A stretch of DNA of 64,000 bases from Actinomycetota bacterium (GTDB taxonomy: Bacteria > Actinomycetota > Acidimicrobiia > Acidimicrobiales > Ilumatobacteraceae): assembly GCA_009702045.1 (NCBI GenBank), contig WLIV01000016.1, forward strand, positions 1 to 64,000. Direction: 5' to 3'. The translations under genes were made by a program, and so were the position numbers. Below, in pieces: positions 4,284 through 62,445 of the stretch (within the stretch, counting starts at the first letter, position 1; each line of letters begins with the position of its first letter). The notes below the pieces were generated by a model that saw only the letters and a list, made by a program, of their open reading frames with translations, searched no databases and was not told where the DNA came from.

Positions 4284-6587
<2,304 letters not shown>

Positions 6588-6605
6588 CGCTGCCAACAGC
6601 ACTCT

Positions 6606-6640
6606 GAAGGCCCGGGCCATGTGCCCGGGCCTTCGTGCTT
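6606..6640 (+). terminator. Rho-independent-type terminator after hppA
   Basis: A perfect 12-bp GC-rich stem (6606-6617 with 6623-6634) has a 5-nt loop. A weak T-rich run (GTGCTTTTC) follows, typical of actinobacterial terminators. Confidence 0.8.
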
Positions 6641-6648
6641 TTCGCCGC

Positions 6649-6654
6649 TAGCCT
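6649..6654 (+). promoter_or_regulatory. -10 box TAGCCT, leaderless start of the DedA gene
   Basis: TAGCCT ends 6 nt before the ATG at 6661 and no Shine-Dalgarno sequence intervenes. The transcript would start at or next to the start codon. Confidence 0.5.
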
Positions 6655-6660
6655 CGCCGG

Positions 6661-7287
6661 ATGCTCGGACTGCTGGACTTCGCGAACAAATGGGTGGAGA
6701 AGGGCGGCCTGATCGTGTTGGCCGCCATCGTCTTCGCCGAATCAGGTCTCCTCGTCGGCTTCTTCCTGCCCGGTGATTCGCTGCTGTTCTTCGGCGGCTT
6801 CCTGTCGTCCAGTGCCGGCGGACATCATCTGCCGGCACTCCCCTGGGTGGCGCTCACATGCGCCGTCGCCGCCATCGTCGGCGACCAGGTCGGCTACATG
6901 ATCGGCCACAAGCTGGGCCCGGCGCTGTTCAAGCGCGAAGAGAGTCGCTTCTTCCACCCGGACAACGTGAAGAAGGCTGAGGCGTTCTTCGCCAAGCACG
7001 GCTCGAAGACCATCATCCTCGCTCGCTTCGTGCCCATCGTGCGCACGTTCGTTCCCACCGTGGCCGGCGCCAGCAAGATGCACTACCGCACGTTCATCAC
7101 GTTCAACGTGATCGGTGGCGTGCTGTGGGGCGCTGGTATCACCACGCTCGGCTACTTCATGGGCGAGATCGATGTCGTGAAGAACAACATCGAGCTGGCT
7201 GCGATCGCCATCGTTGGCATCTCGGTGCTGCCCCTCGCGCTCGAGTTGATGAAGCACCGCAAGGCCGCCAAAACCGCGGCCGCCTGA
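6661..7287 (+). CDS. DedA/SNARE-associated family membrane protein
   Basis: This 208-residue polytopic protein matches the DedA family, whose members are implicated in lipid-carrier or phospholipid flipping and envelope homeostasis. The motif GFFLPGDSLLFFGGFL and the later ILARFVPIVRTFVPTVAGAS, with its conserved F-x-P-x-x-R, are both clear. There are about five hydrophobic segments and a Lys/Ala-rich C-terminal tail. It stands alone between the hppA terminator and a convergent DUF3097 gene. The substrate cannot be told from sequence; undecaprenyl phosphate is one known substrate in the family. Confidence 0.88.
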   Translation: MLGLLDFANKWVEKGGLIVLAAIVFAESGLLVGFFLPGDSLLFFGGFLSSSAGGHHLPALPWVALTCAVAAIVGDQVGYMIGHKLGPALFKREESRFFHPDNVKKAEAFFAKHGSKTIILARFVPIVRTFVPTVAGASKMHYRTFITFNVIGGVLWGAGITTLGYFMGEIDVVKNNIELAAIAIVGISVLPLALELMKHRKAAKTAAA

Positions 7288-54236: not shown

Positions 54237-55508
54237 ATGCGGACGTTCCCCACCGATCCGTCGCAGCCAGATGAATCGTCATACCGGCCGCGCCACACCC
54301 CAGCTCAATTCGCCGTCCTCGCGTTGAACGTCTTGGTCGTAGTTGCATGTCTCGGCGGTGCCGTTGCGCTGCTCTACGGCAAGAACGAACTCGATGGTCG
54401 GCTGCAGACCGCAAAGGTGCAGGTGCAGGTCACCACCGCTAGCACCGCACCGGGTTCCACCGCCCCTGGCGACACCACCGGGCCGACGGGGCCGCCCGAA
54501 ACGTTCCCGGTGGCCGACCCGGCAGCACAGAACTTCCTCATCACCGGCTCGGATGCGAACGCGTGCAACGACCCGAACTCACCGTGGGCGGGCGCCACCG
54601 TCGGTCGCGACGCGTTCGGTAGCCGCAGCGACACGATCATGGTGATGCGTGTCGACCCCACCACGCGCGCCGCCGCAGTGCTGTCGTTTCCCCGCGACTT
54701 GTGGGTGAAGATCCCCGGCCACGGCAAGAACAAGATCAACTCGGCGTACGTCAAGGACGACTACACGCTGCTCGCGAACACCATCTACAACAACTTCGGC
54801 ATCAAGATCGATCACTATGTCCAGGTCGACTTCTGCGCCTTCAAACGCATCGTCGACGCCGTGGGCGGCGTGGGCGTTCCGTTCGCGACGCCAGTCGTCG
54901 ACAAGAACATCGGTCTCAACATTGCAACAGCCGGCTGCCACACGTTCAGTGGCGATGAGGCATTGGCCTACGTGCGGTCGCGGCACCTCAAGTCGATCGA
55001 CGCCAATGGTCAGACCCACGAGGATGGATTTGCCGATCTCGCTCGCATCTCCCGTCAGCAGGACTTCCTGCGACGAGTACTGCGCAAGGCACTGGACAAG
55101 GGCTTGTTCGACGCCAAGGTCGCCCGCGGACTGCTCACCACACTGCAGAGCGACATCGTCACCGAACAAGGTTTCACTGTCGACGACATGCTGAAGTTTG
55201 CCGGCGTGATGCACGACGTTGCCCCCGAGAGCATCCACACCTACCAAGTCGATTCGACGGGCAAGATGCAAGGGCAGTACGCCGTGCAGGTCTACGTACA
55301 GAGCAAAGCGATGACCGCAATCCTTGCCATCTTCCAGGGTTCGGCAACGCTCATCGGCGCGCCGGAGCAAGCAGCGCCCACCAGCAGCACCGTCGACGGT
55401 GGGCTCCAGGTGACGACGACGACTGCCGCCCCTGCACCCGGTGTCACGCAGCCGGCCGACAACACCGTGGGGCAGATCGTCCCCGACAAGAACATCGTCT
55501 GCAGCTAA
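54237..55508 (+). CDS. LytR-CpsA-Psr (LCP) cell-wall glycopolymer ligase, copy 1
   Basis: This 423-residue LCP protein has one N-terminal membrane helix (FAVLALNVLVVVACLGGAVA). A Thr/Pro linker leads to the LCP domain: NFLITGSDANAC, the polyprenyl-phosphate-binding SRSDTIMVMRVDP and SFPRDLWVKIPG, then NKINSAYVKDDYTLL and AYVRSRHLK. LCP enzymes move teichoic-acid-like or arabinogalactan polymers from lipid carriers to peptidoglycan. The next gene is a same-length paralogue in the same orientation. An acidic/Thr-rich tail ends with CS. Confidence 0.92.
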   Translation: MRTFPTDPSQPDESSYRPRHTPAQFAVLALNVLVVVACLGGAVALLYGKNELDGRLQTAKVQVQVTTASTAPGSTAPGDTTGPTGPPETFPVADPAAQNFLITGSDANACNDPNSPWAGATVGRDAFGSRSDTIMVMRVDPTTRAAAVLSFPRDLWVKIPGHGKNKINSAYVKDDYTLLANTIYNNFGIKIDHYVQVDFCAFKRIVDAVGGVGVPFATPVVDKNIGLNIATAGCHTFSGDEALAYVRSRHLKSIDANGQTHEDGFADLARISRQQDFLRRVLRKALDKGLFDAKVARGLLTTLQSDIVTEQGFTVDDMLKFAGVMHDVAPESIHTYQVDSTGKMQGQYAVQVYVQSKAMTAILAIFQGSATLIGAPEQAAPTSSTVDGGLQVTTTTAAPAPGVTQPADNTVGQIVPDKNIVCS

Positions 55509-55560
55509 CTGCGCGACGGTCCTCGGCCGCTCCCGACTCCAGCCTGAGCAGGCTGCCCGG

Positions 55561-55566
55561 TAACCT
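55561..55566 (+). promoter_or_regulatory. -10 box TAACCT before the second LCP gene
   Basis: TAACCT ends 9 nt before the ATG at 55576. Confidence 0.4.
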
Positions 55567-55575
55567 ACTGCAGCC

Positions 55576-56847
55576 ATGGAACCGACCCCAGCCGAGCCAA
55601 AGCGCACGCCGCGGCACACCACCAGCCAGCGGGTAGTACTGACGCTCAACATCGTCGTCGTGCTCGCCTGTCTCGTCGGCGCCGCAGCGCTCATCTACGG
55701 CAAGGATCAGCTCGACGGCAGGTTGCAGACCGACAAAGTCGCCGTGCAAACCACGGTGCAGACAGTGCCAGCCACGCAGGTCAGCACTGACGACACCGGC
55801 AACGCCACCACAAGCCAGGCACCCGACGCCACATTCCCTCCCGCCGACCCAGCCGCCCAGAACTTCCTGATCACTGGCTCTGATGCGAACGCCTGCGTCG
55901 AACCCAACTCGCCGTGGGCAGGTGCCGCCGACCCCTCCCGGGCCAACATCGGCAGCCGCAGCGACACGATCATGGTGATGCGCGTCGACCCCAGCACACA
56001 CGCCGCAGCAATCCTGTCGTTCCCCCGCGACCTGTGGGTGAAGATTCCAGGTAAGGGCAAGAACCGCATCAACGCCGCTTACGTCAAGGACGACTACACG
56101 CTGCTGCAGCAGACCTTGTACGACAACTTCGGTGTCGTCATCGATCATTACATCCAGGTCGACTTCTGCGCGTTCAAGCGCATCGTCGACGGCGTGGGTG
56201 GCGTGGCCGTACCGTTCGACCACCCGATCGTCGACCGCAACGTCGGCATCGATGTCGCACCTGCTGCAGGCGAGACGCTTCCGTTCTGCCACACGTTCAG
56301 CGGCGACGAAGCCCTCGCCTACGCACGCTCACGTCACCTCAAGTGGGTCGACACGAACGGCAAGGTGCACGAGGACCGTGCTGCCGACTTCGGTCGCATC
56401 TCGCGCCAGCAGGATTTCCTGCGGAGAGTGCTGAAGACGGCATTGAAGAAGGGTCTGTTCGATCCCGCTGTGGCGCGAGCCCTCATCGCGTCGCTACAGA
56501 ACGACATCGTCACCGAGCAAGGCTTCACGGTCGACGACATGCTGCGCTTCGCCGGCGTCATGCGCGATGTCGCCCCCGACACGATCCGCACCTATCAGGT
56601 GGACAGTGTCGGCTCCACACAGGGAGGCAGCTCCGTGCGCTTGCCGCAGATCGCAGGCAAGAACATGAAGGCGATTCTTGCGATCTTCCAGGGCAAGGCT
56701 CCACTGGCCGGCGCTCCCGACCAAGTGTTCGACACCACTACGACCGGACCTGGCACGACCGGACCTGGCAGCACCACCACGATCGCGGGCACACCGCTGG
56801 AGAACGGCGTCGGCGACATCCTGCCGCCGAAGAACGTCGACTGCTGA
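55576..56847 (+). CDS. LytR-CpsA-Psr (LCP) cell-wall glycopolymer ligase, copy 2
   Basis: This 423-residue tandem duplicate of the previous gene has the same N-terminal helix (VVLTLNIVVVLACLVGAAAL) and the same LCP core. Shared blocks are NFLITGSDANAC, SRSDTIMVMRVDP and SFPRDLWVKIPG; the mid-domain insert ETLPFCHTF and the divergent linker and tail set it apart. Both copies keep the arginines that bind the lipid pyrophosphate, so both should work, perhaps on different glycopolymers. It ends exactly at the stop of the convergent VWA gene. Confidence 0.92.
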   Translation: MEPTPAEPKRTPRHTTSQRVVLTLNIVVVLACLVGAAALIYGKDQLDGRLQTDKVAVQTTVQTVPATQVSTDDTGNATTSQAPDATFPPADPAAQNFLITGSDANACVEPNSPWAGAADPSRANIGSRSDTIMVMRVDPSTHAAAILSFPRDLWVKIPGKGKNRINAAYVKDDYTLLQQTLYDNFGVVIDHYIQVDFCAFKRIVDGVGGVAVPFDHPIVDRNVGIDVAPAAGETLPFCHTFSGDEALAYARSRHLKWVDTNGKVHEDRAADFGRISRQQDFLRRVLKTALKKGLFDPAVARALIASLQNDIVTEQGFTVDDMLRFAGVMRDVAPDTIRTYQVDSVGSTQGGSSVRLPQIAGKNMKAILAIFQGKAPLAGAPDQVFDTTTTGPGTTGPGSTTTIAGTPLENGVGDILPPKNVDC

Positions 56848-57738
56848 TCACGCTCGTTCGAGCGCTCGCGACACCACCTCGGCCACCGCCGACGGACCCG
56901 ACACGGTCAGACACCTGGCACCGCACCGGGTGGCGAACGCGAACGCCTCGGCGCAGTCCTCTTCCGGGGCAATGATCACCAACTCGTCGAGCGCCTGTGC
57001 TGCGACCATCGGGTCGCCGTCGACCGTGGAGCGACAATCGCTCAACAGCACCGCAACCTTGCGCCCAGCATGGCTACGTGCCAGTTGTTCGCCAGCGGCA
57101 CGCAAGGCCGAGGCAAGATCCGTCGTGCCGAAACCGCGCAGCGACAGGATGTCGGTGACGACGGCGTCACCAGGTTTCGGCGTGAGTTGGCTCTTGGCGA
57201 CCACCACGTCCTTGCCGAACGCAAGCACGCTGTAGTCGGTCGGCGACCGAGTGGCCACAGCCGCAGCAGCGAGCGCTGCAGTGGCAAGCGGGCGCCCACC
57301 CATTGAACCGCTGCGGTCCAACATCAGACACATCGCAGTGGACGGGCGCACCCACCCGCGGATGCGGAGTCGATCGGCGTCGATCGCGCCGGCACGACCC
57401 TCGATGATGGCGTCGATGCTGGCGTCGATGTCGAGGTCGCCGCCGTCGGGTCGATACGGCAGCGCCCGTAGACGGCCGATACCCCGCGAGCGCGTCGGCC
57501 CGCGCTGGGCGATGTCGAAGAACAACCTGCCGGCCAACTGCCGAGCGAGTGTCCGCAACCGTTCATCGGTAGCGCCCACCAGGTCGGCCAACAGCGCGAG
57601 CGTCCCGTCAGGATCCGCTGCCATTGCCCCCGACAACTCGTCTTCGTCCAGTTCCCCCACCTCGGGTGAGATCTGCTCGAAGCCCGGGTGCTGCGCCAAC
57701 TCGCGCCGCGAAGTACTTCGTCGCTTCGCTCTGGCCAC
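56848..57738 (-). CDS. VWA-domain protein partner of MoxR
   Basis: This 296-residue protein has a basic N-terminal helix (RAKRRSTSRREL) and an acidic N-domain. A von Willebrand A domain follows, with MIDAS residues D141-R-S143-G-S145 (CLMLDRSGSMGG) and the later TDLASALRAAGEQ. VWA proteins pair with MoxR AAA+ ATPases to remodel or load metal/cofactor enzymes. The gene is third in the ADH-moxR-vwa unit, 44 bp after moxR. A GTG at 57738 is used; GGAGG overlaps it. Confidence 0.85.
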   Translation of the reverse strand: MARAKRRSTSRRELAQHPGFEQISPEVGELDEDELSGAMAADPDGTLALLADLVGATDERLRTLARQLAGRLFFDIAQRGPTRSRGIGRLRALPYRPDGGDLDIDASIDAIIEGRAGAIDADRLRIRGWVRPSTAMCLMLDRSGSMGGRPLATAALAAAAVATRSPTDYSVLAFGKDVVVAKSQLTPKPGDAVVTDILSLRGFGTTDLASALRAAGEQLARSHAGRKVAVLLSDCRSTVDGDPMVAAQALDELVIIAPEEDCAEAFAFATRCGARCLTVSGPSAVAEVVSRALERA

Positions 57739-57782
57739 CTCCGCATCGGCATCGTTGCCCTCCTTGGCCCGCGGCGGCGACG

Positions 57783-58718
57783 TCAGCGAACGGGAGTCGC
57801 CCCCGTCGGGGCGTTCTCTTTTCCCGACGCGTCATCGGGTTCCGAGACGTCACTGTCGACGAACACTTGCTGCCACAGCTCACGCACGATGTCCTCGGCC
57901 GTGCGCGCACAACCCTCGCGAAGGCGCAGCCGACCGCTCAACGCCACGAGTCCGGCATCGAGGCCCACACCGCGATGATGCGCCGGCAACCCGCGCATCT
58001 CGCCGAGCGTGCGGGCCACAGCGGCGGTATCGATCGCGCCGCGCACGGACGAACCGATGCGCACATCGGGATGGGTGCGACTGCGACGCACGACCTCCAC
58101 GACGTTGGTCAGCCAACCGTCGTGAAGCTCTGCGCCGGGCAGCGCCGCGCGCACGATCGCCACCTCATCGGGTGCGTCCTGGTAGTCGACCGCCAGGCGG
58201 CACACTCGGTCGTATACGGCGCTGCTGATCCGTGCCGTGCCGATCGCGTCGAATGGGTTCATCGCTGCCACGAGACGAAAACCGGATGCTGCCGCTACCC
58301 GACCCAGACGGGGAACATGCAACTCGCGTTCGCTCATCACCGTGATGAGCACGTTCAACGTCTCCTCAGGGATGCGGTTGATCTCCTCGATGTACAACAA
58401 CGAACCGTCGCGCATGGCCGTGACCAGCGCGCCGTCCTCGAACACCGCAGGGTCGTAGCCATCGGTGAGTACACGGGCCGGATCGAAGTGGCCGACCAGA
58501 CGCGCCGGGGTCAACTCGGCGTTGCCTTCGACGAACTCGAACCCCAGACCGAGTTCATCAGCGACGGCACGCAACAGCGTGCTCTTGCCCGTCCCTGGTG
58601 GGCCTTCCAGCAGCACGTGCCGGTTGGCAGCGAGTGCGGCGACGACGAGTTCGATCTCGCGGGCGCGCCCCACCACCCTGCCCAGCACGCGCTGGACGAG
58701 GGCAGCGGCGGCGCTCAT
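57783..58718 (-). CDS. MoxR-family AAA+ ATPase
   Basis: This 311-residue ATPase has Walker A GPPGTGKST (residues 39-47), Walker B in DGSLLYIEEINRIPEE, and the MoxR signature around VMSERELHVPRLG. Such ATPases act as chaperones for insertion of metals or cofactors, with a VWA partner. It starts 10 nt after the alcohol dehydrogenase stop, and the VWA gene follows, so the three form one operon beside the mycofactocin genes. The client is inferred to be the dehydrogenase. Confidence 0.9.
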   Translation of the reverse strand: MSAAAALVQRVLGRVVGRAREIELVVAALAANRHVLLEGPPGTGKSTLLRAVADELGLGFEFVEGNAELTPARLVGHFDPARVLTDGYDPAVFEDGALVTAMRDGSLLYIEEINRIPEETLNVLITVMSERELHVPRLGRVAAASGFRLVAAMNPFDAIGTARISSAVYDRVCRLAVDYQDAPDEVAIVRAALPGAELHDGWLTNVVEVVRRSRTHPDVRIGSSVRGAIDTAAVARTLGEMRGLPAHHRGVGLDAGLVALSGRLRLREGCARTAEDIVRELWQQVFVDSDVSEPDDASGKENAPTGATPVR

Positions 58719-58728
58719 CGGTGACGAA

Positions 58729-59850
58729 TCAGTGCTCGTAGATGAGCACGCCGCGGATGTTCTTGCCGGCGTACATATCGGCGTAGCCCTGGTTGATCCC
58801 TTCGAGCGGGTAGGTCGTGGTGACCATGCCGTCGAGGTCGAGCTGACCGCGGGTGTACAGCTCCATCAGCTTGGGGATGTCGTGGCGCGGGTTACCGCTG
58901 CCGAAGATGGAGCCGACGAGCGACTTCTCCAGCAGGGTGAGCAGCGATGCCGGGATGGCGATGCTCTGCTCGCTGGTGGGGTGGATGTTGGTGACGACGA
59001 TCTTGCTGCGCTTGGCACCCAACCAGAACGCCTGACCGAGGGCCTCACTGCTGCCCACACCCATCGTCATGATCACCTTGTCGTAGCCACGGTTCCAGGT
59101 GACGGCTTCGAGCTGACCGAGGGCCTCCTCGATCGACGATGCAGTGTGTGTGGCACCGAAGTCCATCGCCTTCTCGCGCTTGAACTCGATCGGGTCGATG
59201 GCCGTGACGACGCTGGCACCGGCCAGCTTGGCGCCCTGCACGGCGCTGGCGCCGATGCCGCCGATGCCGACCACCGCGACCATGTCGCCTGGCTGCACGT
59301 CGGCCGCGTAGACCGCGGAACCCCAGCCGGTGACTACTCCACAGCCGAGCAGGCAGGCCTTGTCGAGCGGCCACTCGGGGTTGATCTTCACGCAGCTGGC
59401 CTCGTTCACGACCGTGTGGTGCGAGAACGTGCCCAGGCCGCCCACGGCGAGGCGCAGATCCTGGCCCTTGGCATGGTGACGGGAGGTGCCATCGGAGATC
59501 TGGTAACCGCTGATGCCGTTGAGATCGCACAGGTTGCTGTGCCCACTGGAGCACGACGGGCAGCGCCCGCAGGCCGGCACGAATGCGAACACGACATGGT
59601 CGCCGGGGGCGACGGAGTACACGCCCGGGCCAACTTCCAGCACGATGCCCGCGCCCTCATGGCCACCGATGACCGGCGGCTCGGGCGTGACGCCTGCAAG
59701 GTCGCCGGTGACGATGTGCTCGTCGCTGTGGCACATACCGCTGGCCACCATCTTCACCAGCACTTCACCAGCCTTGGGCGGATCGAGCTCGATCTCCTCG
59801 ATCACCCACGGAGTGTTGCGCTCCCAGAGAACTGCTGCCTTCGTCTTCAC
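58729..59850 (-). CDS. NDMA-type, mycofactocin-dependent alcohol dehydrogenase
   Basis: This 373-residue zinc MDR enzyme has catalytic zinc ligands Cys40 and His64-Glu65 (MVASGMCHSDEH, IGGHEGAG). The structural zinc site is Cys94, Cys97, Cys100 and Cys108. The NAD Rossmann motif is VVGIGGIGASAVQGA. The sequence matches the group whose NADH is not exchangeable and needs mycofactocin as external electron acceptor (NDMA-dependent in vitro). It is divergent from mftABC, 266 bp apart, and heads a moxR-vwa operon. The GTG/ATG choice is clear: MKTKAAVL. Confidence 0.92.
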   Translation of the reverse strand: MKTKAAVLWERNTPWVIEEIELDPPKAGEVLVKMVASGMCHSDEHIVTGDLAGVTPEPPVIGGHEGAGIVLEVGPGVYSVAPGDHVVFAFVPACGRCPSCSSGHSNLCDLNGISGYQISDGTSRHHAKGQDLRLAVGGLGTFSHHTVVNEASCVKINPEWPLDKACLLGCGVVTGWGSAVYAADVQPGDMVAVVGIGGIGASAVQGAKLAGASVVTAIDPIEFKREKAMDFGATHTASSIEEALGQLEAVTWNRGYDKVIMTMGVGSSEALGQAFWLGAKRSKIVVTNIHPTSEQSIAIPASLLTLLEKSLVGSIFGSGNPRHDIPKLMELYTRGQLDLDGMVTTTYPLEGINQGYADMYAGKNIRGVLIYEH

Positions 59851-60116: not shown

Positions 60117-60218
60117 ATGGAGAACGAGATCGTCGACACCACCGCCGAGTCCATCGAGATAGAGGAAGAGCTGTTGGTGGAGGAAATCTCTATCGACGGC
60201 ATGTGCGGTGTCTACTGA
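60117..60218 (+). CDS. mftA: Mycofactocin precursor peptide MftA
   Basis: This 33-residue peptide has an acidic leader (EIEEELLVEEIS) and the invariant C-terminus IDGMCGVY. Val32 and Tyr33 are the residues that MftC decarboxylates and cross-links to form the redox cofactor. The leader binds MftB. The ORF overlaps mftB by 11 nt. It is small enough to be missed by many gene finders; the C-terminal signature makes the call firm. Confidence 0.95.
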   Translation: MENEIVDTTAESIEIEEELLVEEISIDGMCGVY

Positions 60219-60513
60219 GCTGAGCGCTCACCCGCTGCCCGACGACCTGCTCACCCGGTCGCTCGAGCTGCATCCGCAGGTCGCGCTGCGCCCTGAACCG
60301 TTCGGCGCGCTGGCCTACCACTACGGCAACCGTCGCCTGGTGTTCCTGAAGCACCCCGACATGGTCAAGGTCGCTCGCGAGCTCGCCAACCACGCAACTC
60401 TCGCCGACACCCTGGCGGCATGTGCGGTCGACCGCACTCGTTGGCCGTCGTTCTCGAAGGCCTTCGCCTCACTCCAACACTCCGACGTCGTTCGGGAAAG
60501 GGTCGCTCCGTGA
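60208..60513 (+). CDS. mftB: Mycofactocin precursor-binding protein MftB (RRE/PqqD-like)
   Basis: This 101-residue protein has a PqqD-like RiPP-recognition domain: SLELHPQVALRPEPFGALAYHYGNRRLVFL in the family order, then a helical part (DMVKVARELANHATLADTLAAC). It holds the MftA leader and presents it to MftC. It overlaps mftA by 11 nt and mftC by a GTGA overlap, so the three are translated as one coupled unit. A short C-terminal tail (SDVVRERVAP) follows. Confidence 0.93.
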   Translation: MSTELSAHPLPDDLLTRSLELHPQVALRPEPFGALAYHYGNRRLVFLKHPDMVKVARELANHATLADTLAACAVDRTRWPSFSKAFASLQHSDVVRERVAP

Positions 60514-61652
60514 GCGTCGAATCTCTCGTCAGCCAGTTGAAGACCGGGCTCGACGCCCCGATCTGTCTCACGTGGGAACTCACCTACGCGTGCAACCTGC
60601 AGTGCGTGCACTGCCTCTCATCGTCCGGTCAGCGCGATGAGCGCGAGCTCAGCACCGCCGAGGCCAAGGGAGTGCTCGACCAACTCCGCGACCTACAGGT
60701 CTTCTACATCAACATCGGTGGTGGCGAACCGATGGTGCGCCGCGACTTCTTCGAGATCGTCGAGCACTCGATCGGCAACGGCATCGGCGTGAAGTTCTCC
60801 ACCAACGGTGCGTTCATCGATGCTGAGAAGGCCCGCCGCCTCGCCTCGATGGACTACCTCGACATCCAGATCAGCCTCGACGGTGTCGATGCCGCCACCA
60901 ACGACGCCGTCCGCGGCATCGGCAGCTACGACATGGCGCGACGGGCGATGGACAACCTCGCCGCGGCCAACTTCGGACCGTTCAAGATCAGCGTCGTCGC
61001 CACTCGCCACAACGTGCCGCAGCTCGACCGCTTCAAGGAGCTAGCCGACTCATATGGCGCGCAGCTGCGACTGACCCGCCTGCGCCCCAGCGGCCGCGGC
61101 GTCGATACGTGGGACGATCTACACCCGACCAACGCCCAGCAACGCGAGATTTACCACTGGCTGATGGCCAACGGCGAGAACGTGCTCACGGGCGATTCGT
61201 TCTTCCACCTCAACGCACTCGGTGATTCGCTGCCCGGCCTCAACATGTGCGGTGCAGGGCGAGTGGTGTGTCTCGTCGATCCCGTCGGCGATGTGTACGC
61301 GTGCCCGTTCGTGATCCATGGCGATTTCAAGGCTGGCAATGTGCGCGACGAGGGCGGATTCGCGAAGGTGTGGCGCGAGTCCGATCTGTTCCGCGAGCTG
61401 CGCGAACCACAGTCGGCTGGCGCCTGCGCGAGTTGCGGTGCGTTCGATGCCTGCCAAGGCGGGTGTATGGCCGCCAAGTTCTTCACCGGATTGCCGCTCG
61501 ACGGCCCCGACCCGGAGTGCGTGGCCGGCGACGGCGAGGTGGCACTCGCCGAACTGGGCGCTCAGTCAGCGTCGACCCCGGTGAGTGTCAGCTTCAAGCC
61601 GCGCCCCACCCCCGACCACACCAAGCCCGCCCGCACCCCCGTCCCCGCGTAA
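60510..61652 (+). CDS. mftC: Mycofactocin radical SAM maturase MftC
   Basis: This 380-residue radical SAM-SPASM enzyme decarboxylates the C-terminal Tyr of MftA and cross-links it to Val. The radical SAM motif is Cys28-xxx-Cys32-xx-Cys35 (YACNLQCVHC), with GGGEP at 70-74. Auxiliary clusters are held by Cys247, Cys254, Cys265, Cys306, Cys309, Cys315, Cys319 and Cys337. The C-terminal tail (from about 355) is Pro-rich and not part of the core. The GTG start overlaps mftB. mftD, E and F do not follow directly. Confidence 0.95.
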   Translation: MSVESLVSQLKTGLDAPICLTWELTYACNLQCVHCLSSSGQRDERELSTAEAKGVLDQLRDLQVFYINIGGGEPMVRRDFFEIVEHSIGNGIGVKFSTNGAFIDAEKARRLASMDYLDIQISLDGVDAATNDAVRGIGSYDMARRAMDNLAAANFGPFKISVVATRHNVPQLDRFKELADSYGAQLRLTRLRPSGRGVDTWDDLHPTNAQQREIYHWLMANGENVLTGDSFFHLNALGDSLPGLNMCGAGRVVCLVDPVGDVYACPFVIHGDFKAGNVRDEGGFAKVWRESDLFRELREPQSAGACASCGAFDACQGGCMAAKFFTGLPLDGPDPECVAGDGEVALAELGAQSASTPVSVSFKPRPTPDHTKPARTPVPA

Positions 61653-61656
61653 TCGC

Positions 61657-61738
61657 CGCCGGTTTCTGGGAAGAAGTTGTCCCAAGTCGGCTTCTGCGAA
61701 GGATGAGTCCCGGTTTCCGGGGGACCACGGCTTCCCAG
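61657..61738 (-). repeat. Dispersed intergenic palindromic repeat, copy 2
   Basis: On the minus strand this reads like 12937-13018, sharing TGGGAAG, the CGGAAACCGG core, ATCCTTC, CAGA and TTCCCAGAA blocks in order. It lies between mftC and plsY. Its hairpin (TTCTGGGAAG with CTTCCCAGAA) may end mftABC transcription. Confidence 0.7.
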
Positions 61739-61857
61739 AACGTGCAGCGAGCGGGGCGCGCAACACCGCAGAGGGGCCCAAGGGGACACAGTTCCGCAGC
61801 GGCACACGCTCTAAGGTGGCCCACACCGCCATGGGCCGCGTACGGAAAGGGGGCGGG

Positions 61858-62445
61858 ATGATCTGGCTGTTCCTGCTGCCTGCCTACGCGCTCGGCACGT
61901 TCCCGAGTGCGGTGATGATCGCCCGCGGCAAGGGTGTCGACATCACCAAAGTCGGCTCTGGCAACCCCGGCGCATCGAACATTTCGCGTACATTCGGTAA
62001 GCCGTGGGGTGTGCTCGTCTTCGTGCTCGATGGGTTGAAGGGCATGATTCCGGCGGCGGTCGGCATCTGGTTGATCGACGACCGGCCGGTCGCCTACGGC
62101 ATGGTCGTCGCCGCCATCCTGGGCCACATGTTCCCACTCACCCGTCGGCTTCGTGGCGGCAAAGGTGTGGCCACCATGGCCGGTGCGGCCTTCGTGCTGC
62201 AGCCCATCGTGGCGCCGCTCCTCGCCGTGCTCTGGTACACCTCGTTGAAGGTCTCCAAGAAGGCATCCGTCGCCTCGATCGTCGTGATGGTCGGACTGCC
62301 CGTCGGCACGGCCCTCAAGGGCGCCCCCGGTTGGGAGATCGCGACGCTCGCGGCGATCAACGCCCTGGTGATGGTGCGCCACACCGAGAACATCAAGCGG
62401 CTCCTCGACGGAACCGAGCTGTCGGCGAAGCGACCGAACTCGTAG
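61858..62445 (+). CDS. plsY: Glycerol-3-phosphate acyltransferase PlsY
   Basis: This 195-residue membrane acyltransferase makes lysophosphatidate from acyl-phosphate and glycerol-3-phosphate. The PlsY motifs are KVGSGNPGASNISRTFGK, LGHMFPLTRRLRGGKGVATMAG and the C-terminal NALVMVRHTENIKRLLDG. The ATG at 61858 follows a G-rich ribosome site. An upstream ATG at 61831 lies 13 nt after TAAGGT. Its place between mftC and the OYE gene is unusual; it may simply be a neighbour or may provide lipid for membrane-linked redox enzymes. Confidence 0.9.
   Translation: MIWLFLLPAYALGTFPSAVMIARGKGVDITKVGSGNPGASNISRTFGKPWGVLVFVLDGLKGMIPAAVGIWLIDDRPVAYGMVVAAILGHMFPLTRRLRGGKGVATMAGAAFVLQPIVAPLLAVLWYTSLKVSKKASVASIVVMVGLPVGTALKGAPGWEIATLAAINALVMVRHTENIKRLLDGTELSAKRPNS

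Follow-up and report, generated by a model that had tools for sequence, protein, structure and literature searches.

Why does a mycofactocin-type alcohol dehydrogenase (ADH) share an operon with a MoxR-type AAA+ ATPase and a von Willebrand factor A (VWA) protein, and how is this VWA protein made? The question is raised by contig WLIV01000016.1 of an Actinomycetota bacterium of the Ilumatobacteraceae (assembly GCA_009702045.1), of which positions 1 to 64,000 were analyzed (hereafter the window, 64,000 nucleotides). Here, the ADH is the first gene of an ADH–MoxR–VWA operon. We propose, with moderate confidence, that the MoxR–VWA pair is a dedicated remodeller of mycofactocin nicotinoprotein dehydrogenases whose VWA part is made by programmed recoding. 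The linkage of the pair with these enzymes and its partner specificity are firm observations, and the moxR/vwa junction offers strong sequence evidence of recoding signals, which were absent from the initial annotation of this locus and are new here.

The operon and its junction are laid out as follows (coordinates in the window; nt, nucleotides; aa, amino acids):

58729..59850, − strand: ADH, NDMA-dependent (mycofactocin-type) alcohol dehydrogenase; TIGR03989, 503 bits against a cut-off of 440
57783..58718, − strand: MoxR-type AAA+ ATPase, zero-frame product of 311 aa; Pfam AAA_5 and AAA_3 above cut-off
56848..57738, − strand: VWA protein, open frame from GTG; Pfam VWA_CoxE above cut-off
56848..57819, − strand: −1 frame from the putative slippery site to the VWA stop; open through VWA, with no start before VWA homology
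57819..57825, − strand: in-phase heptamer G_GGA_AAA (MoxR frame), putative slippery site
57799..57812, − strand: stem-loop GCCCC-GACG-GGGGC, proposed frameshift stimulator, 6 nt behind the heptamer
57783..57785, − strand: zero-frame MoxR stop TGA

Profile matches and coordinates bear out what the initial annotation had claimed, i.e. that the three genes form one operon with 10 nt between ADH and MoxR; by the same coordinates, MoxR and VWA are 44 nt apart. TIGR03989 enzymes are zinc-type ADHs and nicotinoproteins, which use mycofactocin and hold a non-exchangeable NAD(H), and the ADH is the probable client of the pair in this operon. The TIGR03971 short-chain dehydrogenases/reductases (SDRs) need no zinc and have no zinc site.

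Near the end of moxR, ADH-type loci, that of the window included, carry an element composed of GGGAAAAG, five free bases, GCCCC, four bases, and GGGGC, which is unique in the window at up to 2 mismatches and occurs in 0 of 100 shuffles. A −1 shift at this site would yield a MoxR–VWA fusion of 623 aa (by arithmetic). Upstream of the GTG at 57738, the VWA frame stays open as far as the last part of moxR, where it follows a conserved slippery site; this GTG is therefore doubtful as a separate VWA start and is probably not a real one.

The junction was examined at 120 loci; L189 and L190 were dropped because their contigs end before vwa, which leaves 118 with both genes in tandem, and loci that look like duplicates (L200/L250 and L220/L240) were retained in the counts. 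An in-phase G_GGA_AAA with vwa in the −1 frame, usually trailed by a GC stem, is present in 50 of the 118, window included, and an in-phase U_UUU_UUC with vwa in the same frame in 8 more, so that one of these heptamers is found in phase in 58 of the 66 −1 junctions. At 37 junctions, a single UGA separates moxR from a vwa that shares its frame, and 13 are single-frame MoxR–VWA fusions. The frames of VWA relative to MoxR (0/+1/−1) are 37/1/65, compared with 17/41/34 in dehydrogenase–MoxR controls; this count treats 15 junctions as fused (L216 and L253 being included by a script rule), where the stricter count is 13.

Several features of these junctions bear on recoding. ADH-type MoxRs have GK within their last 30 residues in 37 of 40 cases, while SDR-type MoxRs end in PG in 23 of 29. 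We considered these tails as peptide motifs and rejected this, given that the codons GGA AAA are used in 30/30 of the pattern-fitting ADH tails (30 of the 40), where further synonymous bases are also frozen (GCC 28/30, GGG 26/30), which places the signal in the nucleic acid. A stem of at least 5 pairs lies 5–8 nt behind G_GGA_AAA in 44/50 junctions, against 21.5% for 2000 positions drawn at random from these loci, and some stems vary in sequence yet pair (e.g. CCCACC with GGTGGG). The expectation for an in-phase GGGAAAA is 0.0014 per 85 nt. UGA junctions have the context GGN-UGA-AGR: the next codon is AGR in 36/37, where AGR makes up 4.4% of Arg codons in the same MoxRs, and the peptide R-x-V-x-A-D-S-P is kept right after UGA with varied codons, a mark of coding selection beyond an in-frame stop. 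Selenocysteine at this UGA was rejected on a weak argument, i.e. the alignment fold of the 45 nt from the UGA is pairless and column shuffles are likewise.

The alternative that survives best, although we regard it as unlikely, is that MoxR and VWA are ordinary proteins, each started separately, and that the conserved junction is an element of RNA stability, processing, or regulation; the pair would still serve the dehydrogenase. Public records list two genes, the window VWA has its GTG where homology starts, and 11 of the 58 frameshift-type junctions have upstream start codons in the VWA frame. Other results weigh against recoding: 8 of the 118 junctions are −1 without G_GGA_AAA or U_UUU_UUC (two of these, L218 and L252, have in-phase A-run heptamers), two junctions (L216 and L247) are broken, and the fold energy behind the heptamer is unremarkable (mean z −0.74; window −0.1), with the 50-nt fold of the window having an alternative of lower energy than the GCCCC-GACG-GGGGC stem-loop. 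Open upstream frames are also common in this DNA, being found in 83/92 controls, and frame openness by itself was dropped as evidence for recoding. What two independent starts would leave unexplained is the strict heptamer phase and frame bias, the frozen synonymous codons at the end of moxR, the peptide kept directly after UGA, mostly without a start codon in between, and the 13 direct fusions; at 47 of the 58 frameshift-type junctions, no −1-frame start codon precedes the VWA homology.

A few loci depart from the common layouts. L207 is an in-frame fusion that still carries GGGAAAAG, where a −1 slip would reach a TAG after five codons; on its sequence, it reads as the mirror image of the usual junction. 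In L191, L245, and L246 (the latter two run off the stretch examined), tandem MoxR genes lie behind mycofactocin-type SDRs and the second is fused in frame to VWA, so gene duplication may replace recoding there. L218, from a metagenome-assembled genome labelled Thermincola, has a distant MoxR–VWA pair (4941-6799) whose neighbors encode MttB-like and dimethylamine-methyltransferase-like proteins and a B12-binding protein. An A_AAA_AAG heptamer precedes its MoxR stop in phase, and the pair may be a comparable machine that serves a different enzyme. The exact junction motif was found in 2 records of viral contigs, neither with a match to the query proteins in the stretches examined.

What does the pair serve? 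Among 198 genomes of the class, VWA (E <= 1e-10) is present in 24, mftC in 37, and a TIGR03989 enzyme above cut-off in 38. VWA and mftC occur together in 24 genomes, VWA alone in 0, mftC alone in 13, and neither in 161 (Fisher 7e-22, kinship uncorrected). A same-strand TIGR03989 ADH is close to VWA in 21 of the 24 VWA-positive genomes; in 20, it lies about 1 kb, i.e. one MoxR, upstream, and in G123, it lies 376 nt downstream, with a second VWA match on a contig without ADH. Overall, 26 of the 58 TIGR03989 genes above cut-off in the class are linked in this way. In 396 genomes of the phylum, this type of MoxR (E <= 1e-60) is found in 31, 26 of them with mftC (Fisher 1.6e-21, kinship uncorrected); the other five are weak matches (G227, G238, and G478) or come from genomes that are 89% and 87% complete (G356 and G518).

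A scan of named genomes with the MoxR alignment gave a further set, the best 80 loci chosen by MoxR similarity alone. VWA follows MoxR in 77 of these, and 70 have an mft gene or mft-type dehydrogenase within the stretch. Three lie at contig edges; in the other 77, scored for neighbors by BLAST score, a mycofactocin-type dehydrogenase is directly upstream of MoxR in 60 (28 zinc-type ADHs and 32 SDRs). All SDRs tested with profiles pass TIGR03971 (6/6), as both tested ADHs pass TIGR03989 (2/2). The linkage by which the initial annotation proposed to check its idea is thus conserved in many other genomes (VWA near an ADH in 21/24 of the class, an ADH or SDR directly before MoxR in 60/77 named loci). 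Among plasmids, MoxR has matches at E <= 1e-20 in only two records, both from Rhodococcus (47%), and the next relatives, among the matches listed, fall to 29%, two inspected ones adjoining DUF58 genes. On the R. qingshengii plasmid, MoxR shares 4 nt with a mycofactocin-coupled SDR and is followed by VWA, while such SDRs stand on both flanks of the MoxR–VWA pair in R. ruber. The Rhodococcus MoxR and VWA have no NCBIfam match at 1e-20.

The type of dehydrogenase also tracks the type of MoxR. In a MoxR tree of 105 rows (quick LG+G4, long outgroup branches, MoxRs of 270–360 aa only, which leaves out most fused MoxRs, L207 included), 47 ADH-labelled and 32 SDR-labelled rows are separated by one partner change. 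With all labels, ADH requires 5 changes and SDR 9, because rows without an adjacent dehydrogenase fall between. Modestobacter and Geodermatophilus loci are present in both classes, and assembly JAPLAT01 holds one locus of each type, L186 (SDR) and L207 (ADH, assigned from its best match); as such, these sequences indicate that the split has more behind it than species history. The first 57 residues of VWA are 11% identical between the ADH and SDR classes (41% and 22% within), while the core is 29% identical between them (52% and 62% within; all values exclude L214, L218, and L176). Since its N-terminus differs most between partner classes, a VWA that reads the client through this region would fit. 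Given the linkage and the partner clades of MoxR, the dehydrogenase is the likely client.

A number of observations speak against so simple a relationship. Among the 77 scored loci, 12 have no such dehydrogenase nearby and 5 have one that is not adjacent. Three class genomes of family f3 (loci G019:C20, G079:C2, and G141:C53) have no nearby ADH and show the order MoxR–VWA–mftE. No residue signature (a column with more than 85% one residue in linked and less than 45% in unlinked enzymes) splits 66 linked from 23 unlinked TIGR03989-like ADHs. In the phylum, 26 of the 52 mftC-positive genomes lack this MoxR at E <= 1e-60, including 14/14 genomes of family f70, presumably mycobacteria, and 13 of these 14 hold 1–16 TIGR03971 SDRs (E <= 1e-85). 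The MoxR–VWA pair is, therefore, no general requirement: the mycofactocin system, its enzymes included, can manage in the absence of the pair. Finally, recombinant mycobacterial SDRs bind NAD without added cofactor (PMC5264612), so that first loading need not require help.

Could the pair instead have a part in making mycofactocin, or act on this cofactor directly? A mft biosynthesis gene lies in the stretch of 34/80 named loci, L159 and three f58 loci (L248, L249, and L251) have the pair flanked by mftC and mftD, and it adjoins mftE in the three f3 genomes. However, half of the mftC-positive phylum genomes are without the MoxR of the pair, the MoxR clades follow the fold of the dehydrogenase, the operon of G002 is intact though mftC is 2.7 Mb distant, and the Rhodococcus plasmid stretches have SDRs but lack any gene with an mft biosynthesis annotation, which together make this explanation still less probable than two separate starts. 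Least probable of all is that the pair inserts zinc into the ADH, by analogy with iron insertion by NorQD or with CoxDE: the ADHs are of the zinc type, NorQD offers a precedent with iron, and VWA matches VWA_CoxE, but a sister clade of the same MoxR–VWA sits behind TIGR03971-type SDRs, so the pair must do more than load zinc, which is unlikely as its general role. Of the roles suggested in the initial annotation, service to the dehydrogenase thus finds support in partner-specific MoxR clades, zinc as a general role is unlikely, and the pair may load or exchange NAD or mycofactocin.

Predicted folds suggest what kind of remodeller the pair might be. The MoxR model (pLDDT 91.5) has NorQ and then CbbQ as best Foldseek matches, with 23–25% identity to NorQ in structure alignment, and its GPPGTGKS-type, EE, and N-P motifs (Walker A, Walker B, and sensor) are invariant in 35 sequences. 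For the VWA model (pLDDT 90.6), the best match is NorD, the Foldseek alignment spanning 235–274 columns, and the metal-ion-dependent adhesion site (MIDAS, DxSxS-T-D; D141-S143-S145-T206-D234) is invariant in 30 sequences. Residues 89–130 are modelled as a strand-helix-strand ahead of the VWA core, a putative NorD-type "finger". VIA-align ranks plain VWA domains highest (Z about 17–19), and the likeness to NorD accordingly rests on Foldseek and on this element.

NorQ/NorD is similar in gene order (AAA+, then VWA) and MIDAS, and perhaps in the strand-helix-strand element taken for a finger, and differs in its genes and in its client, nitric oxide reductase, into which iron is inserted. NorD and NorQ are encoded separately (L258 has a NorQ-type pair), and NorD has a large N-terminal domain where about 80 residues are found here. 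NorQD is required for iron insertion (PMC13036017, PMC9976466); its VWA occupies the ring's C-terminal opening and has the finger in the pore (PMC13036017). It opens nitric oxide reductase for iron, while CbbQO frees blocked rubisco (PMC9976466, PMC4660213), and published models of both have one VWA partner per hexamer (PMC4660213, PMC9976466). CbbQ/CbbO shares the MoxR fold and a VWA with MIDAS; it differs in its client and in the length of CbbO (about 770 residues), and no recoding is described in the excerpts of PMC4660213. CoxD/CoxE, of CO dehydrogenase maturation, resembles the pair by family match only (MoxR and a VWA_CoxE-type protein). No CO dehydrogenase gene was recognized beside the pair in the window, where the neighbors are ADH, mftABC, plsY, and LytR-CpsA-Psr (LCP) genes rather than those expected of CoxDE.

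The closest precedent for the proposed recoding is the frameshifted chlD of Mg/Co-chelatase, an AAA+/VWA gene with two products from one message (PMC9227772). There the products are chelatase subunits and the slippery sites are AT-rich; unlike in chlD, the usual zero-frame product here would be MoxR alone, and UGA readthrough would also be used. To the mycofactocin system (mftABCDEF, TIGR03971/TIGR03989), the locus is tied by gene neighborhood and dehydrogenase families. Excerpts of its literature mention no MoxR/VWA component (PMC3023750, with 0 hits for "ATPase", "AAA", and "von Willebrand"; PMC11778925, 0 for "MoxR"; PMC5264612, 0 for "ATPase"). One paper listed for both "mycofactocin" and "MoxR" concerns Mycobacterium chelonae prophages (PMC8191103), and one on Frankia gives MoxR-like and carveol dehydrogenase genes with distant locus tags, not a pair (PMC10520049). 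Among the papers listed in searches of an open-licence library, none was found that treats MoxR or VWA together with mycofactocin, nicotinoproteins, or frameshifting; older frameshift catalogues lay outside these searches and may hold an earlier mention.

For recoding in cells, the make-up of the ring, its contact with the dehydrogenase, and its action at the NAD site, we infer the following. MoxR would form a ring that VWA plugs, gripping the dehydrogenase through its MIDAS, as NorD and CbbO grip their clients. Programmed recoding would append VWA to the C-terminus of MoxR, through −1 frameshifting in the ADH class and in a Pseudonocardia-like part of the SDR class and through UGA readthrough at most SDR-class loci; at others, the two would be joined by plain gene fusion. 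One message would thus give much MoxR and little MoxR–VWA, which would suit about one VWA per hexamer, and a VWA attached to the end of one MoxR would be well placed to enter the ring's C-terminal opening. The likeliest action would be to open the closed NAD(H) site for cofactor loading, exchange, or clearing; cofactor rather than metal would be the target because both partner folds share NAD and mycofactocin, not zinc. Mycofactocin SDRs cover their NAD, and its release would need a large conformational change (PMC5264612).

Taken as a whole, the reading that we hold to be moderately probable is a so far undescribed activase system for mycofactocin nicotinoproteins of two unrelated folds, with an AAA+/VWA ratio set by recoding and a junction solved in at least four ways. 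Judged from the junction sequences, these would be −1 shifts on G_GGA_AAA, −1 shifts on U_UUU_UUC, UGA readthrough, and fusion, three loci of the last kind having an extra MoxR.

Divergent from the operon lie the mftABC genes, as the initial annotation had it (+ strand, 60117-61652):

60117..60218, + strand: mftA, mycofactocin precursor; C-terminal end IDGMCGVY, read from sequence
60208..60513, + strand: mftB; TIGR03967, 93 bits against a cut-off of 33
60510..61652, + strand: mftC; TIGR03962, 616 bits against a cut-off of 265; start GTG assigned by eye

In the genome of the window (G000), mftE is located on contig C16, and mftD (TIGR03966) has no match at E <= 1e-60 (best 26.6 bits); since mftA, B, C, and E are present, another enzyme may do the mftD step. 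The same absence at this threshold is seen in 8 of the 37 mftC genomes of the class (G000, G047, G067, G157, G118, G091, G130, and G197). The genome also has five TIGR03971 SDRs, all on other contigs, which again speaks against the pair as a general requirement. The ADH is single in the window, while many relatives have a tandem pair of TIGR03989-like ADH genes before MoxR (L100-L103, L106, L197, L199, L203, L205, L208, and L211). Directly behind mftC is plsY (61585-62445), which is also near mftC in several related genomes. On the other side, two similar LCP family genes stand in tandem (54237-56847), the second convergent with VWA and ending on the base beside the VWA stop.

The NAD of nicotinoproteins is buried; with a dedicated remodeller, the replacement of a dead or wrong cofactor would become a testable question. 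If the junction works as proposed, frameshifting, readthrough, and fusion would be interchangeable answers to a fixed AAA+/VWA ratio, recoding could set the VWA copy number, and the system would be a model for how ring machines obtain a single adaptor. In actinobacteria that carry it, the MoxR–VWA pair could mark mycofactocin enzymes.

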